Assembly (NCBI RefSeq): GCF_016863255.1
Contig: NZ_BOON01000067.1
Coordinates: 1-41,457 of the forward strand
Length of the DNA stretch: 41,457 bases
Source: Planosporangium mesophilum
Lineage (GTDB): Bacteria > Actinomycetota > Actinomycetes > Mycobacteriales > Micromonosporaceae
Direction: 5' to 3'
Below, piece by piece: positions 12,661-19,385 of this stretch. Every line of letters starts with the position of its first letter. Position 1 is the first letter of the stretch. The notes beneath the pieces were generated by a model, which saw only the letters and a list, made by a program, of their open reading frames with translations, was not told where the DNA came from and did no database searches. The translations under genes and the position numbers were made by a program.

Positions 12661-13146
12661 ATGTCGTCGTTTCAGCTGCCCGTACCCAAAGACGTCCGTG
12701 ACCTGTTCGAGGACCTCCTTGGGCGCCCGATCACCGTGGGCACAGCCAATCCGGTCCTCGCGGAGGATCTGAAGACGACCCTCGTGAGCCTGTACACCGA
12801 CAGCACCCAGAAGCTGTGGGCGGTGGCCGGCATGGATCTGCCGTTGACGGTGTACGCCGGCGCGGCGATCGGCCTGCTCCCTCCCGGAGGTGCGCAGGAC
12901 TGCGTCGACGACGGTGTCGTGACGCCGACCCAGGCGGAGAACGTCAAGGAGGTCTGCAACATTCTGACCTCCCTGCTCAACCGTGAGGGTGCTCCTCACC
13001 TCAAGCTCTACCAGGTCGTCCTGCCCGGCGAGCCGCTTCCTGGCGACGCGGCCGCGGTTCTGCAGGCGCTCGGCCGTCGTCTCGACCTGACGGTCGAGGT
13101 CGGCGGTTACGGCAGCGGCAGGCTGTCGATCACCCTGGCTGAGTGA
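12661..13146 (+). CDS. Divergent CheC/CheX-fold protein
   Basis: 161 residues, not annotatable by overall similarity. The segment NVKEVCNILTSLLNREG (about 94-110) has the shape of the CheC/CheX/FliY phosphatase helix (compare EIGNIL...N), with Glu97 and Asn100 in E..N spacing. The surrounding predicted strands also fit. I therefore read it as a second, divergent CheY-P phosphatase or a related CheC-fold binding protein; this is inference from one motif. It begins 8 nt after the second cheY and ends the cheB operon at a strong terminator. Confidence 0.6.
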   Translation: MSSFQLPVPKDVRDLFEDLLGRPITVGTANPVLAEDLKTTLVSLYTDSTQKLWAVAGMDLPLTVYAGAAIGLLPPGGAQDCVDDGVVTPTQAENVKEVCNILTSLLNREGAPHLKLYQVVLPGEPLPGDAAAVLQALGRRLDLTVEVGGYGSGRLSITLAE

Positions 13147-13470: not shown

Positions 13471-13818
13471 TTACTCCGCCTTCTCCTCGGCCGGGGTCTC
13501 CTCCGGCGGCACCACGTCGGTGCTGCGCCGGCCCTGGACCTGTGCCATCAGCGCGGGGTTGTTGCGCGCGACCTCGAGGGCGTCCATGGCGGCCTGCTGG
13601 GCGACCTCCCGGGCCTCCGTTCGGGCCAGGGCGTCGTTGCCGCGCTGGTACCCGTTCGCCAGGCCGTTGAGCATCGCCAGCATCAGGGCCGCGACCACGA
13701 CCGCGATCAGGTACCTGACGAGGGCCGTTGTGTAGTCCAGGTCGTGCAGGACGAACGCGTGGTAGAGCGCCGGGCTGTCCAGCAGCGCGGCGAGCAGGAG
13801 CGTCGACCACTTCGTCAT
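13471..13818 (-). CDS. Small membrane protein at the end of the flhA operon
   Basis: 115 residues from ATG 13818. There is an N-terminal hydrophobic stretch (about 5-14), one clear transmembrane helix (about 34-55, LVRYLIAVVVAALMLAML), then a charged helical region with probable coiled-coil character (about 58-95) and an acidic Pro/Glu/Lys tail. Family unknown. It is 17 nt downstream of the PilZ gene and co-directional with flhA, so it is probably co-transcribed; a motor- or c-di-GMP-related membrane role is a guess. Confidence 0.65.
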   Translation of the reverse strand: MTKWSTLLLAALLDSPALYHAFVLHDLDYTTALVRYLIAVVVAALMLAMLNGLANGYQRGNDALARTEAREVAQQAAMDALEVARNNPALMAQVQGRRSTDVVPPEETPAEEKAE

Positions 13819-13835: not shown

Positions 13836-14501
13836 TCAGTAGTCGTCGTCGGCGGCCGCGCGGCGGGCCAGCACCTGCTGGCGCATCACGTACCGGCGCA
13901 CCAGCTCCGCCTGGCGCTCAGTCAGCTCCAGGGTCACGATCATGTCGACGGTCTTCCCGATGCGGTCGTCGATGGTCCGCAGCACAGCGCCGTCGGCGTC
14001 GAGCATGTCGTCGCCCAGCTGCACGACCGTGGTCACCGGTACGCCGTCGTCGAGCATCACCCGGTCGGGGGCGTCGGGCTTGGCGCCGTTGATCCGGAAC
14101 CGTACGCCGCCCTCGCTGATGTCGCTGGCGGCGCCGGAGATCACGATGTCGTCGCGCTCCTTCGGGCGTACCCGTACCGCCTCACCACCGCCCGCGCGGA
14201 CGAACCGGCGGCGCTGGTTGAGTACGGGCTCCGACTCGACGGTCAGGGACCAGCACCGCATCGGTACGCCCTCGACCCGTGCGGTCGACGTCAGCCTGGC
14301 GTCGACGACGTACCGCCCACGCGGCCCGGCGACCCAGCTCAGCTTCAGGACGGCGCCCAGGTCGGGGATCTCGACCGTCTCGTTGAACGGTGCGGCGACG
14401 ACCACGGTCGCGCCGTTGATCATCTCCACCCGTGACTCGAGCTCGGTCCCCTCGTGAACAAGGCTGACCGGCGAGCTGACCTCGGGCATCGGCTCGCTCA
14501 T
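13836..14501 (-). CDS. YcgR-like PilZ-domain c-di-GMP receptor
   Basis: 221 residues from ATG 14501 (4-nt overlap with the upstream FlhF-like gene). An N-terminal YcgR-N-like beta domain (about 15-90) is followed by a PilZ domain with both c-di-GMP signatures: RRRFVR (RxxxR) near residue 96 and DISEGG (D/NxSxxG) near 127. YcgR-type proteins slow or bias flagellar rotation, or interact with MotA, when c-di-GMP is high. The gene shares an operon with flhA and lies close to an EAL-HDOD protein, so c-di-GMP control of zoospore motility is likely. Confidence 0.85.
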   Translation of the reverse strand: MSEPMPEVSSPVSLVHEGTELESRVEMINGATVVVAAPFNETVEIPDLGAVLKLSWVAGPRGRYVVDARLTSTARVEGVPMRCWSLTVESEPVLNQRRRFVRAGGGEAVRVRPKERDDIVISGAASDISEGGVRFRINGAKPDAPDRVMLDDGVPVTTVVQLGDDMLDADGAVLRTIDDRIGKTVDMIVTLELTERQAELVRRYVMRQQVLARRAAADDDY

Positions 14502-15943
14502 TCCACCACCTCTTCCAACCGCCGACACAGCAGGTCAGCCCAGACATGCGGGGTTGCGACGCGACCGTCGAGCAGCGCGACGGGCACCCCCAGTTGCAGG
14601 ACGGTAGCCGGGTCGCTCGTTGCCGCGCAGGCATACGCCGCGATAGCATCCACATGGCCGATATCGGCTAGTCGGCGCGCGCTATCCGCAGTCTTGCCTG
14701 TGGCGTTGACCACACCCCACACCGCGGCGGCGTCACAGCTCTCCACGATCGAGCGGGCCCATTCGGTACCGATGCCGCCGGCCGGCATGTCGACCACGAC
14801 GACGATCGGCGCGTCCGCGACGCGGCGCAGCTTGGCGATCCGCTTGACCGCGTGCTCCGGACCGGTCAGTCGCCGGCTCGGGTGGATACCGGTACCCGCG
14901 CAGCTGGCGGCGGCGAGCACGACGCGGGCCGGGGCCAGGCGCAGCGACTCGCTGACCGTACGGGCCACCGCCAGCGCGTCGCGCAGCTCACCGGCGATCA
15001 CGAGGACCTCACCGGCGCGTGACGGCGGCTTCGGCGCCTCGGGCAGGAGCTTGAGGACCTTGACGATCGCCCGGTACGAGTCGGCGCCGGTCACCCGTTC
15101 GCCCAGCTGCTCCGGCAGGCCCAGGTGGGACAGCACGGTCTTCAGCGGAGCGTCGGCGGGCAGCCGGACAGGCTGGTAGCGCGGGATCAGCGGGGCGTCC
15201 GGGGTGTCGGCCTCCTGGCCGGCGACGCTCGCGGTCGGAGCCACCGCAGCTTGAGCGGCGGCGTGGCCGGCGGCCGGCGGTGCCGGTGCGGCCTTCGGCG
15301 GCGTCGGTGTTGCGGCCGGGGGAGCGACGACCACGGGCGGCCGCTCCGCGGCCGTCGGCGTGGTGGGCGCGGGCATCACGGTGGTACCACCCGTCACGAC
15401 CGGGACCCTCCAGCCCGGCGCCCCGAAGCCGGACAGCACCTCGGCGAATGCGTTCGGGTTGGCGCTCGGCTCGGTCGTGGTGCCGGTCGGGCCGGCTGTG
15501 GTCGTGGTGCCGGTCGGGCCGGCTGTGGCCGTGGTGCCGGCCGGGCCGGCTGTGGCCGTGGTGCCGGCCGAGCCGGCTGTGGTCGTGGTGCCGGCCGAGC
15601 CGGCTGTGGCGGCGTCCGGGGTGCCCGACTCGTCCGCGCCGAGGTGCGGCAGCAGTTGGCGCTCCTGCGCCTCGACGAGGGCGATCAGCGCGTCGGCCGG
15701 GCTGCCGGCGGCACCGGCGGCGGCAGCCGGGGCGGCCTTGACCGCCGGAGCGGCCGTGCCGGTCTCCGCGGAGTCGGCCACCTCGATGGTCAGCTCGTAC
15801 CGTTCGCGGCTGAACAGGCCGGTCAGACCGGTCGGGCGAACCCGGTCGGCGGCGACGATGCGCGCCGCCGGACCGTGCTCGGCGCGGACCTGTGCCAGCA
15901 GTTCCTGGATGTCGCCACCCTCAAGCAGCAATCGAGTAGGCAC
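14498..15943 (-). CDS. FlhF-like protein lacking the P-loop
   Basis: 481 residues from GTG 15943, overlapping the end of flhA by 23 nt. Residues 1-55 (DIQELLAQVRAEHGPAARIV, then GLTGLFSRERYELTIEV) match the N-terminal B domain of the SRP-type GTPase FlhF. A long Ala/Thr/Pro linker (about 60-245) includes five 9-residue repeats. The C-terminal third (about 255-480) keeps the strand/helix pattern of the FlhF N-G domains, but where GxTGxGKTT should be it reads VLVIAGELRDALAVA, and the DTAGR-like motif is VVDMPAGG. GTP binding is therefore unlikely. It sits at the flhA-flhF position seen in other bacteria. No FlhG/MinD-like partner is present. Confidence 0.7.
   Translation of the reverse strand: MPTRLLLEGGDIQELLAQVRAEHGPAARIVAADRVRPTGLTGLFSRERYELTIEVADSAETGTAAPAVKAAPAAAAGAAGSPADALIALVEAQERQLLPHLGADESGTPDAATAGSAGTTTTAGSAGTTATAGPAGTTATAGPTGTTTTAGPTGTTTEPSANPNAFAEVLSGFGAPGWRVPVVTGGTTVMPAPTTPTAAERPPVVVAPPAATPTPPKAAPAPPAAGHAAAQAAVAPTASVAGQEADTPDAPLIPRYQPVRLPADAPLKTVLSHLGLPEQLGERVTGADSYRAIVKVLKLLPEAPKPPSRAGEVLVIAGELRDALAVARTVSESLRLAPARVVLAAASCAGTGIHPSRRLTGPEHAVKRIAKLRRVADAPIVVVVDMPAGGIGTEWARSIVESCDAAAVWGVVNATGKTADSARRLADIGHVDAIAAYACAATSDPATVLQLGVPVALLDGRVATPHVWADLLCRRLEEVVE
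15474..15608 (-). repeat. 27-bp tandem repeat inside the FlhF-like gene
   Basis: Five contiguous 27-bp units (15474, 15501, 15528, 15555, 15582), differing at a few bases, encoding Thr/Ala/Gly/Pro nonapeptides such as AGPTGTTTT on the minus strand. Confidence 0.9.
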
Positions 15944-17960
15944 CGTTCACCACTCCCACGGTTTCGACGCGCAGCGCGCTCTGGGCGATCTCGGAGTACG
16001 ACAGGACGGGCAGCCGGGGTACGGCCATCTGGAGCAGGCGCCGCAGCGCCAGGCGCAGTTGGGGCGAGCAGACGACCACCGGGCTGAGGCCCCGCTGCTC
16101 GGCGGTCTCGCACAGTTGGGTCAGCTCCGCCACCATGATCTCCGCCCGGCCGGTGTCGACCAGCAGTTGCAGGCCGGCCTCGGTGGGGCGCAGCGACTCG
16201 AGCAGCGACTGCTCCAGGCGCGGGTCCAGGGTGACGACGGTGAGCGCGCCGTCGGTGGCGTACCGGGCGGAGATGGCCGGGCCGAGGGCGGCGCGGGCCG
16301 CCTCCAGCAGCGAGTCGTGGTCGGTGGCGCTCTTCGCGGTCAGCGAGAGGGACTCGAAGATGCGTACCAGGTCGCGGACCGGTACGTCCTCGTCCAGCAG
16401 CCCCTGCAGCACCCGCTGTACCTGGCCGAGGCTGAGCAGGGCCGGGGTCAGCTCCTCGACGACGACCGGGTGGGTCTGCTTGACGACCTCGGTGAGCGCC
16501 CGCACGTCCTCGCGGCCGAGCAGGCGGCTGGCGTTGGCCCGTACCACCTCGGCCAGGTGCGTGATGATGACCGAGGCCCGGTCCACCACGGTCGCGCCGG
16601 ACAGGTCGGCCTGGTGGCGCAGTTCGGCCGGTACCCACTTGCCGGCAAGGCCGAAGACCGGCTCGACGCCGGCGCGGCCGGGCAGGAAGTCCAGGTTCTC
16701 GCCGATCGCGAGGACGGTGCCGGGTGGCGCCTGGCCCTGGGCGACGTCCACCCCGCTGATGCGGATGGCGTACGTCGACAGCGGCAGGTCCAGGTCGTCG
16801 CGGGTACGCACCGGCGGCATCACGATGCCCAGGTCGAGGGCGACCTTGCGGCGCAGTGACCGTACCCGGTCCAGGAGGTCGCCGCCGGCACCGTCGACGA
16901 GGTCGACGAGGTCGGGGGAGAGCGCCAGCTCGAGCGGGTCGACGCGCATCTCGCCCAGCAGCGACTCGGTCGGGTCGGCCGGCGCCGGGGCGTTCGCGTC
17001 CGCCTCGGCCGCCTCCCCGGCGGGCGAGGAGGGCATCCGCTGCGCGACGAACAGCGCGGCGCCGCCGATCAGCAGGAACGGGAGCTTGGGCAGGCCCGGG
17101 ATGAGGCACAGCACCAGGGCGGCACCGCCGGCGATCCGTAACGCGACCCGGTGCTGGCCGAGCTGCTTGATCACGCTCGAGCCCATGTCGCCCTCGGTGG
17201 CCGAGCGGGTCACGATGAGGCCGGTCGCCACCGACAGCAGCAGCGCCGGGATCTGCGAGACGAGGCCGTCGCCGACGCTCAGCAGGCTGTACTTCTGGAT
17301 GGCCTCGACGGGAGACATGCCCTTCTGGACCATGCCGACGACGAAGCCGCCGATGAGGTTGATCAGGGTAATGACGATGGCGGCGATCGCGTCGCCCTTG
17401 ACGAACTTGGAGGCGCCGTCCATCGCGCCGTAGAAGTCCGCCTCGGCGGCCACCTCGGCGCGGCGCCTGCGCGCCTCCACCTCGTCCATCAGGCCCGCGT
17501 TGAGGTCGGCGTCGATCGCCATCTGCTTACCCGGCATGGCGTCGAGGGTGAAGCGGGCGCCGACCTCGGCGACCCGCTCCGCGCCCTTCGTGATCACGAG
17601 GAACTGGATCACGATCAGGATGGTGAAGATGACCAGACCGATCACGAGCTGGCCGCCGACCACGAAGTGGCCGAACGCGTCGATGACGTTGCCTGCGAAG
17701 CCGTCCATGAGGACCAGGCGGGTGGCGCTGATGTTGAGCGCGAGCCGGAACAGCGTCATGACCAGCAGCAGCGAGGGGAACGTGGAGAAGTCCAGCGGAC
17801 GCTTCACGTACATGCTGGTCAGCACGACCACCAGCGCGCCGACGATGTTCAGGGCGATGAACAGGTCGATCAGGAAGGTGGGCAGCGGCACGACCATCAT
17901 CACGATGATCAGTACGACACCCAGGGGGACGGCGAACTGGCTCAACCGGCGACCGGACAC
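15921..17960 (-). CDS. flhA: Flagellar export gate protein FlhA
   Basis: 679 residues from GTG 17960 (AGAGGG upstream). The N-terminal half has about eight membrane helices and the FHIPEP-family signatures: LFRLALNISATRLVL near residue 70, and a cytoplasmic loop with VAEVGARFTLDAMPGKQMAIDADLNAG near 135-160. The C-terminal half is the cytoplasmic nonamer-ring domain that receives substrates and chaperones. Length is normal. It is the first gene of a four-gene minus operon starting at a flagellar-type promoter (18035-18060). Confidence 0.97.
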   Translation of the reverse strand: MSGRRLSQFAVPLGVVLIIVMMVVPLPTFLIDLFIALNIVGALVVVLTSMYVKRPLDFSTFPSLLLVMTLFRLALNISATRLVLMDGFAGNVIDAFGHFVVGGQLVIGLVIFTILIVIQFLVITKGAERVAEVGARFTLDAMPGKQMAIDADLNAGLMDEVEARRRRAEVAAEADFYGAMDGASKFVKGDAIAAIVITLINLIGGFVVGMVQKGMSPVEAIQKYSLLSVGDGLVSQIPALLLSVATGLIVTRSATEGDMGSSVIKQLGQHRVALRIAGGAALVLCLIPGLPKLPFLLIGGAALFVAQRMPSSPAGEAAEADANAPAPADPTESLLGEMRVDPLELALSPDLVDLVDGAGGDLLDRVRSLRRKVALDLGIVMPPVRTRDDLDLPLSTYAIRISGVDVAQGQAPPGTVLAIGENLDFLPGRAGVEPVFGLAGKWVPAELRHQADLSGATVVDRASVIITHLAEVVRANASRLLGREDVRALTEVVKQTHPVVVEELTPALLSLGQVQRVLQGLLDEDVPVRDLVRIFESLSLTAKSATDHDSLLEAARAALGPAISARYATDGALTVVTLDPRLEQSLLESLRPTEAGLQLLVDTGRAEIMVAELTQLCETAEQRGLSPVVVCSPQLRLALRRLLQMAVPRLPVLSYSEIAQSALRVETVGVVNGAYSIAA

Positions 17961-18104: not shown

Positions 18105-19385
18105 GTGTCAACGACATCGGAACCGCAGCCCGGACAGATCGTTCACGTCGGTCGTCAGCCGCTGTACAACCCCGCTGGCGACGTCGTCGGGTACGAGCTG
18201 CTCTTCCGCGGCGCCGGTACCGAGGTGGCGGCGTCGCGGCGCAACGCGTACGCCACCAGTCAGGTGATCGTGAACGCCTTCACCGAGTTCGGCCTGCCCG
18301 AACTGGTCGGCGACCACATGTGTTTCATCAACCTGACGCGCGAGTTCATCGTCGGTGAGTTGGCGCTGCCGTTCGAGCCCGGCCGGGTCGTCCTGGAGAT
18401 CCTCGAGTCGGTCGAGATGGACGACGAGGTGATCGCGGGGGTCTCCCGCCTGGTGGAGCAGGGGTACCCGATCGCGCTGGACGACTTCGTCTTCGGGCTC
18501 GGCCACGAGCGGCTGCTGGGCCTCGCCTCGTACGTGAAGATCGACGTGCTCGACGGCGACGAGGATCGCATCACCTCGGTCGTGCGGGCCTGCCGGAAGT
18601 ACCCGGACATCAAGCTGGTCGCCGAGAAGGTGGAGACCACCGAGCACATCATGCTGGCCCATGAGCTCGGGTTCGAGCTGCTCCAGGGGTACGCGCTGAG
18701 CCGCACCCAGGTGGTGTCGATCGCCACCCTGGCGCCGTCGCGGCTGCGCCGGCTGGAACTGCTGGGCGCGCTGACCGGGCCCGAGGCCGACGTCGACCAC
18801 ATCGTGTCGATCGTGACCAGCGACCCGGCGTTGACGTTCCGGGTACTGCGGGCGACGAACGCCGCCTCGGGCGGCCTGAACCGTCGCGTCTCGTCGGTGC
18901 ACCAGGCGGTCGTCATGCTCGGCGGCCAGCGAATCCGGGAGTGGGTGACGCTGATGCTGGTCTCGGACATCGCCGAGGCGAGCGACGCGCACCTGTCGAC
19001 CGCGATGGCCCGGGCGCGGCTGTGCCAGACGATCGCCAGCCGGCTCGACGCCTCCGCCGACTCGGCGTTCATCGCCGGCCTGCTCTGGGGCATCTCCGAC
19101 GTGCTCGGCGTCCCGGTGGTCGACCTGGTCGGCCGGTTACCGCTGGCCGACGACGTGACCGAGGCGCTGGTCAACGGGTCCGGCGGCCTCGGCGAGGTGC
19201 TGTCGCTGGTGCGGGCGTACGAGGGGGCGGACGCCACGGCGCTCAGCCAGCTCAAGGTGTCCCCGGCGGACCTGGCGAAGGCGTACCTGAGCGCGGTGGG
19301 CTGGTCGGTACGGACCGTGCAGGGCGTGCTCGGTCCGCCCGCGTCGCGCCCGGGCGCTTCCGACAACGTTCCGACGCCCGCCTGA
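18105..19385 (+). CDS. EAL-HDOD protein (YuxH/PdeH-type c-di-GMP phosphodiesterase)
   Basis: 426 residues. The N-terminal EAL-type domain (about 10-210) reads ELL instead of EAL, as in the YuxH family, but keeps the metal/catalytic positions: Glu31, Asn76 (FINLT), Glu98, Asp126-Asp127 (LDDF), Lys145 (VKID), Glu in AEKVET and Gln in LQGYAL. The HDOD domain (about 215-410) holds the usual helices, including QAVVMLGGQRIREWV. Family members hydrolyse c-di-GMP or act as signalling adaptors; the retained residues allow activity. GTG 18105 has no ribosome-binding site and lies 9 nt after the -10 hexamer. Codon 345 is a rare TTA. It is monocistronic, ending at the 19429 hairpin. Confidence 0.85.
   Translation: MSTTSEPQPGQIVHVGRQPLYNPAGDVVGYELLFRGAGTEVAASRRNAYATSQVIVNAFTEFGLPELVGDHMCFINLTREFIVGELALPFEPGRVVLEILESVEMDDEVIAGVSRLVEQGYPIALDDFVFGLGHERLLGLASYVKIDVLDGDEDRITSVVRACRKYPDIKLVAEKVETTEHIMLAHELGFELLQGYALSRTQVVSIATLAPSRLRRLELLGALTGPEADVDHIVSIVTSDPALTFRVLRATNAASGGLNRRVSSVHQAVVMLGGQRIREWVTLMLVSDIAEASDAHLSTAMARARLCQTIASRLDASADSAFIAGLLWGISDVLGVPVVDLVGRLPLADDVTEALVNGSGGLGEVLSLVRAYEGADATALSQLKVSPADLAKAYLSAVGWSVRTVQGVLGPPASRPGASDNVPTPA

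Follow-up and report, generated by a model that had tools for sequence, protein, structure and literature searches.

The gene at positions 14498 to 15943 (minus strand) of a 41,457-nucleotide stretch of the Planosporangium mesophilum genome (contig NZ_BOON01000067.1; the whole stretch is referred to here as the window) probably encodes an FlhF-derived pseudo-GTPase, which would serve as a FliG tether without the GTP/FlhG cycle; we infer this function from sequence comparison and structure models. An earlier reading of the window from its letters alone (the first-pass annotation) had described the gene as a relative of FlhF that has lost its nucleotide-binding motifs and sits directly after flhA. 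Its open reading frame (ORF; 481 residues), strand and coordinates were given correctly, and so was its position: the gene lies in a flagellar cluster and overlaps flhA by 23 bases. The gene and the parts of its product are as follows.

14498..15943, minus strand: predicted FlhF-derived pseudo-GTPase, 481 residues (GTG start at 15943, stop at 14498-14500)
15764..15943, minus strand: B domain, residues 1-60, predicted equivalent of the FliG-interacting domain (FID) of FlhF, assigned by TIGR03499, profile and model
15185..15763, minus strand: variable low-complexity linker rich in Ala, Pro and Thr, assigned from sequence and the fastest-evolving part in most pairs compared
14501..15184, minus strand: pseudo-NG domain, 228 residues, predicted signal recognition particle (SRP)-GTPase fold without the G1, G3 and G4 motifs

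From sequence and prediction, the C-terminal domain (C-domain) appears to have retained the NG fold. Structure prediction and comparison, which the first-pass annotation had proposed as a check, yielded a C-domain model with the SRP-GTPase NG fold; the outcome it had named as refuting, a model lacking that fold, did not arise. Consistent with this, a C-domain profile built from 37 members matched 16 P-loop-bearing NG domains with an E value of 4.4e-6 (probability, 86.7), compared with 0.22 for the reversed profile and 0.5 to 0.89 for five column shuffles. The match to Ffh/FtsY-type rows was weaker (E value, 0.0015), and for this reason we prefer the NG domain of FlhF as the relative.

What the domain lacks are the nucleotide motifs. 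These were counted in 94 distinct C-domain cores (106, less 12 pairs with an identical core), a set that includes loci from a named sample comprising the best 80 of 151 relatives retrieved with a 14-row B-domain alignment; because they were picked by B-domain likeness, the named loci are biased toward window-like B domains. The core set leaves out L166 (truncated, 39.8 bits) from the 70 named loci scoring above 30, and L103 (the second contig of genome G062) was not used. The G1 P-loop (GxxxxGK[ST]) is absent from the window protein and from all 94 cores, as is G4 ([TN]KxD) from all 94, while G3 (D[TS][AP]G) occurs in one (L172) and GK[ST] elsewhere in the domain in two. The profile alignment pairs GELRDAL with GPTGGGK and DMPAG with DTAGR, the same replacements (AGELRDAL for the P-loop and VVDMPAGG for the DTAGR-like motif) that the first-pass annotation had named. 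The first glycine of the P-loop is kept in 94 of 94 cores and the Asp at the place of Walker B in 50. Read from these motifs, nucleotide binding has probably been lost; a still-active GTPase was considered and rejected because there is no G1 or G4 motif. The most conserved stretch of the C-domain, VW-VVDATRKTAD, aligns with ATTKxxD of FlhF, and its residues recur in most of the 94 cores (Trp156 in 91, Asp160 in 85, Ala161 in 92, Lys164 in 79 and Asp167 in 85). The window copy itself deviates in this loop, with Asn160 and Gly163 in place of the Asp found in 85 and the Arg found in 70 of the 94 cores.

By sequence and model, the N-terminal domain resembles an FlhF-derived B domain or FID, and FliG binding is predicted for it. 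TIGR03499 matches the window protein over residues 9-83 only (E value, 1.4e-6) with 28.5 bits, which does not reach the cutoff of 174.15 bits; in a profile-profile comparison, 40 B domains from behind flhA matched 16 FlhF B domains from other classes of the phylum with an E value of 6e-14, so that the FlhF-like B domain of the first-pass annotation stands. The crystallized FID of Shewanella FlhF (9en1) consists of three antiparallel strands and one helix, and residues 1-60 of FlhF are necessary and sufficient for FliG binding (PMC11236974). The model of our B domain likewise has three strands and one helix; 9en1 was its top Foldseek match (probability, 0.99), and chains of this entry make up 8 of the 11 leading rows.

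The missing GTP site goes together with a missing FlhG. As had been claimed for the window, FlhG was not found: it lies beside none of the 141 loci compared (class, relative and named loci together, of which 19 have no FlhF-like gene), and a search of 14 whole class genomes gave none. The best MinD-type hit had an E value of 2.4e-14, against values from 1.3e-67 to 3.8e-194 for three genomes that have a GTPase-type FlhF. FlhF above the TIGR03499 cutoff occurs in 15 of 396 genomes sampled across the phylum, and the P-loop is kept in these 15 and in one weaker FlhF (L129). The GTPase-type FlhF proteins of other Actinomycetota classes (L113-L127, L223 and L224) share with the protein described here the phylum, the place behind flhA and homologous B and NG domains, but differ in their intact P-loop and in the FlhG, bearing DQAxxLR, that adjoins 14 of the 17 loci. 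L223 (G501) and L224 (G620), from other families, keep the P-loop, DTAGR or DTPG, and TKxDE; one FlhG query found no FlhG in either genome, a possible intermediate state. An intact flhF elsewhere in the P. mesophilum genome, which the first-pass annotation had named as grounds for doubt, was not seen in an SRP54 search of this assembly (98.55% complete): the search returned only two strong matches (239.6 and 237.2 bits), which we read as Ffh and FtsY, and a weak one (24.4 bits), and that candidate was rejected accordingly. In the FlhA tree, a fully supported branch sets the 60 rows of the class apart from the rest, so the simplest reading is that the GTP site was lost once, early in the class; this is provisional, since the tree is midpoint-rooted, contains no more than five non-class rows and has long branches that were flagged.

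The family appears closely tied to flagella. A single-sequence scan of the genome contigs with the window protein found no relative, because too few stretches are conserved. Among 394 genomes sampled from the class Actinomycetes, a C-domain match was found in 30, all of them among the 51 that have FlhA and none among the 343 that do not; one C-domain hit remote from flhA (G102; E value, 7e-4) was taken as chance. In 28 of those 51 genomes the ORF behind flhA carries both domains; in one it is divided between two contigs, in two (family f27) it has only the B domain and in one it is unclear. No such gene is seen in the remaining 19 (families f41 and f48 and part of f51). L092 (G061) scores 8.7 bits for the B domain, and its assignment is unclear. 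Several of the 19 geneless loci, which include L059, L061, L064, L072, L093, L098 and L100, have a short hydrophobic-looking or CsrA-like ORF instead. A family member is present in each of the four genomes examined from the genus and in 11 of 41 relatives.

The family search in other actinobacteria proposed by the first-pass annotation found relatives behind flhA in many flagellated genera. In the named sample, all 80 loci have an upstream flhA in the same orientation, and at 79 of them it ends no more than 20 bases from where the B domain begins; the C-domain is present at 70 and the P-loop at none. Eight of the 10 ORFs lacking a C-domain run to the contig end, while L155 is closed at 287 residues. 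The L196 ORF stops at 71 residues, and the flhA match there ends 420 bases before. The genera represented are Actinoplanes, Planomonospora, Planobispora, Micromonospora, Cellulomonas, Cellulosimicrobium, Actinotalea, Sanguibacter, Motilibacter and Kineococcus (both Kineococcus loci end ahead of any visible C-domain). Cellulomonas, Cellulosimicrobium, Actinotalea, Sanguibacter and Kineococcus are not known to form zoospores. The suggestion of a repurposed scaffold for placing zoospore flagella was therefore half right: a scaffold is the most likely function, but its restriction to zoospores is too narrow given the presence of the protein in genera such as Cellulomonas, Actinotalea and Sanguibacter.

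How might such a protein work? Since the parts of a tether are retained and those of a switch are missing, we infer a constant FliG tether. The N-terminal domain would bind FliG and thereby gather the first FliF-FliG ring precursors, as the FID of Shewanella FlhF does, and the long flexible linker would connect it to the pseudo-NG domain, which may dock on a positional or membrane partner much as the NG domain of FlhF docks on HubP. The VW-VVDATRKTAD loop is the best candidate for a retained docking surface. Without GTP and FlhG there would be no assembly and release cycle of an NG homodimer; the protein would then act constantly, as a tether or an assembly factor, and flagellar number and timing would presumably be set by its expression or by partner proteins. 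FID-FliG and NG-HubP binding apparently do not need nucleotide (PMC11236974), and in Pseudomonas aeruginosa the B and N domains are reported to suffice for flagella, the G domain serving to keep them polar (PMC12713375). One broader proposal, which we advance only tentatively, is that flagellar assembly in the class Actinomycetes (Actinomycetia) uses a nucleotide-free FlhF in which the GTP/FlhG switch was lost once and early, that FliG tether and NG scaffold have remained under selection, and that the VW-VVDATRKTAD loop, on what was the catalytic face, has become a new docking or signal-input site, sometimes with an adjacent PilZ protein responding to cyclic di-GMP (c-di-GMP).

Several findings weigh against the tether. 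The loss of nucleotide binding is a motif-based reading, and GTPase-motif mutants of Vibrio FlhF are reported to lose polar localization and flagella (PMC6092412), so that a working nucleotide-free FlhF would need some compensation. Confidence in the B-domain model is low (predicted local distance difference test score, 65.5), and its match to the FID has an E value of only 0.13. For the C-domain, the VIA-align Z score for FlhF (17.4) is tied with those for FtsY and Ffh, so FlhF is not separable on structure; the A3 profile run against PDB sequences places an actin-family protein first (E value, 0.0013) and SRP54 next (0.02); and a Pfam scan of the 37 members finds SRP54 in one (E value, 0.28) and TsiV in seven (best, 7.3e-5). 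Finally, such a gene is not seen behind flhA in 19 of the 51 class genomes that are flagellated, which indicates that it is dispensable in some lineages.

The genes around the FlhF-like gene bear on one alternative and are listed here.

15921..17960, minus strand: flhA, upstream (PF00771 match in the genome search)
13836..14528, minus strand: PilZ-domain protein, downstream and overlapping the FlhF-like gene (PF07238; E value, 2.6e-6)
13471..13818, minus strand: small protein without family, downstream of pilZ, that seems to contain a hydrophobic stretch

Judging by their overlap, the FlhF-like gene and pilZ may be cotranscribed, as had been proposed. As a general partner, however, PilZ did not hold up: its gene directly follows the family member in 20 of 39 closed class and relative loci and in 12 of 71 closed named loci. 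At three loci with FlhG that we examined, the order is flhA-flhF-flhG with the PilZ gene beyond flhG; the adjacency may therefore be an ancient layout and not evidence of repurposing. At L223, a PilZ gene directly follows the GTPase-type flhF. An EAL-HDOD gene (18105-19385, plus strand) is divergent from flhA and near the PilZ gene, a possible c-di-GMP input at this locus.

Such neighbors could be taken to mean that the pseudo-NG domain now senses or converts some other ligand, using Gly65, Trp156 and DATRKTAD, so that the protein would remain a ligand-driven switch. The former active site does retain an invariant glycine and a polar, conserved loop, PilZ (potentially c-di-GMP responsive) is adjacent in some lineages, and the EAL-HDOD gene lies across from flhA in the window. 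We nonetheless consider this unlikely: no known ligand motif was found, the conserved loop reads equally well as a protein docking surface, and PilZ is absent beside most named loci.

It is also conceivable, but improbable, that the protein is a decaying remnant in which the B domain alone matters and the C-domain is drifting toward loss. L055 and L056 (family f27) keep a B domain (86-87 bits) in ORFs of 249 and 277 residues in which no C-domain match exceeds the threshold; in three separate groups the gene is missing from behind flhA, and on the FlhA tree this absence requires at least two to three changes. The ratio of nonsynonymous to synonymous substitution rates (dN/dS) in 15 pairs was 0.04 to 0.61 for the C-domain, above that of the B domain in most pairs; the B domain ranged from 0 to 0.91 (the upper value stemming from one pair with a dS of 0.07) and the linker from 0.13 to 1.30. 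However, the C-domain ratio was below 1 in all 15 pairs and between 0.04 and 0.27 in six, Trp156 and Ala161 are nearly invariant, and the domain is kept across the class-wide FlhA tree. The C-domain is thus constrained, although less strongly than the B domain in most pairs. That it is an unrelated Rossmann-like domain fused to an FlhF B domain is very improbable, even though the window sequence has no Pfam match to SRP GTPases (including the SRP54-type model PF00448) and no PDB-sequence match to them above chance.

Set beside known systems, the proposed tether is most like FlhF (TIGR03499; structures 8r9r, 2px0/2px3 and, for the FID, 9en1), with which it shares an FID-like B domain, a flexible linker, the NG fold and the place behind flhA; it differs in lacking G1, G3, G4 and FlhG, in its shorter NG domain and in scoring far under the TIGR03499 cutoff. 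Ffh and FtsY share the NG fold and a tied structural Z score but have another N-terminal part, give the weaker profile match and carry nucleotide motifs that are absent here. BcsE, a degenerate REC-GGDEF tandem of cellulose secretion, is comparable in principle only, being unrelated in fold and system; there, a catalytic fold without its substrate site works as an assembly factor (PMC7439463). Searches of one open-access library listed no account of an FlhF with a dead GTPase site; an earlier mention is possible, for example in PMC4966450, which deals with the flagellar cluster of A. missouriensis. One survey, of the type made by Zhu and colleagues (PMC10746217) and based on BLAST E values below 1e-5 and follow-up checks, places FlhF among the components lacking in non-FlgFG classes, which its Fig. 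6 legend gives as Acidimicrobiia, Nitriliruptoria and Actinomycetia. By sequence, the proteins described here fall under such thresholds, and the family amends the scoring of FlhF as lacking in Actinomycetia. GTP binding and hydrolysis by FlhF matter to differing degrees across species (PMC12826062). A natural lineage with both folds, no GTP site and no FlhG would separate the tether from the switch.

The rest of the window is likewise flagellar and chemotactic, with a CheA-type kinase, CheR, CheX and a response regulator, as well as FlhB, FliP, FliM, MotB, a hook-type protein and an FliI-type ATPase. Amid the chemotaxis genes is a 161-residue ORF (12661-13146, plus strand) that has no Pfam match at an E value of 0.001. 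Downstream ORFs resembling the small protein at 13471-13818 recur at many loci of Micromonosporaceae or Streptosporangiaceae type and in part of the related loci.
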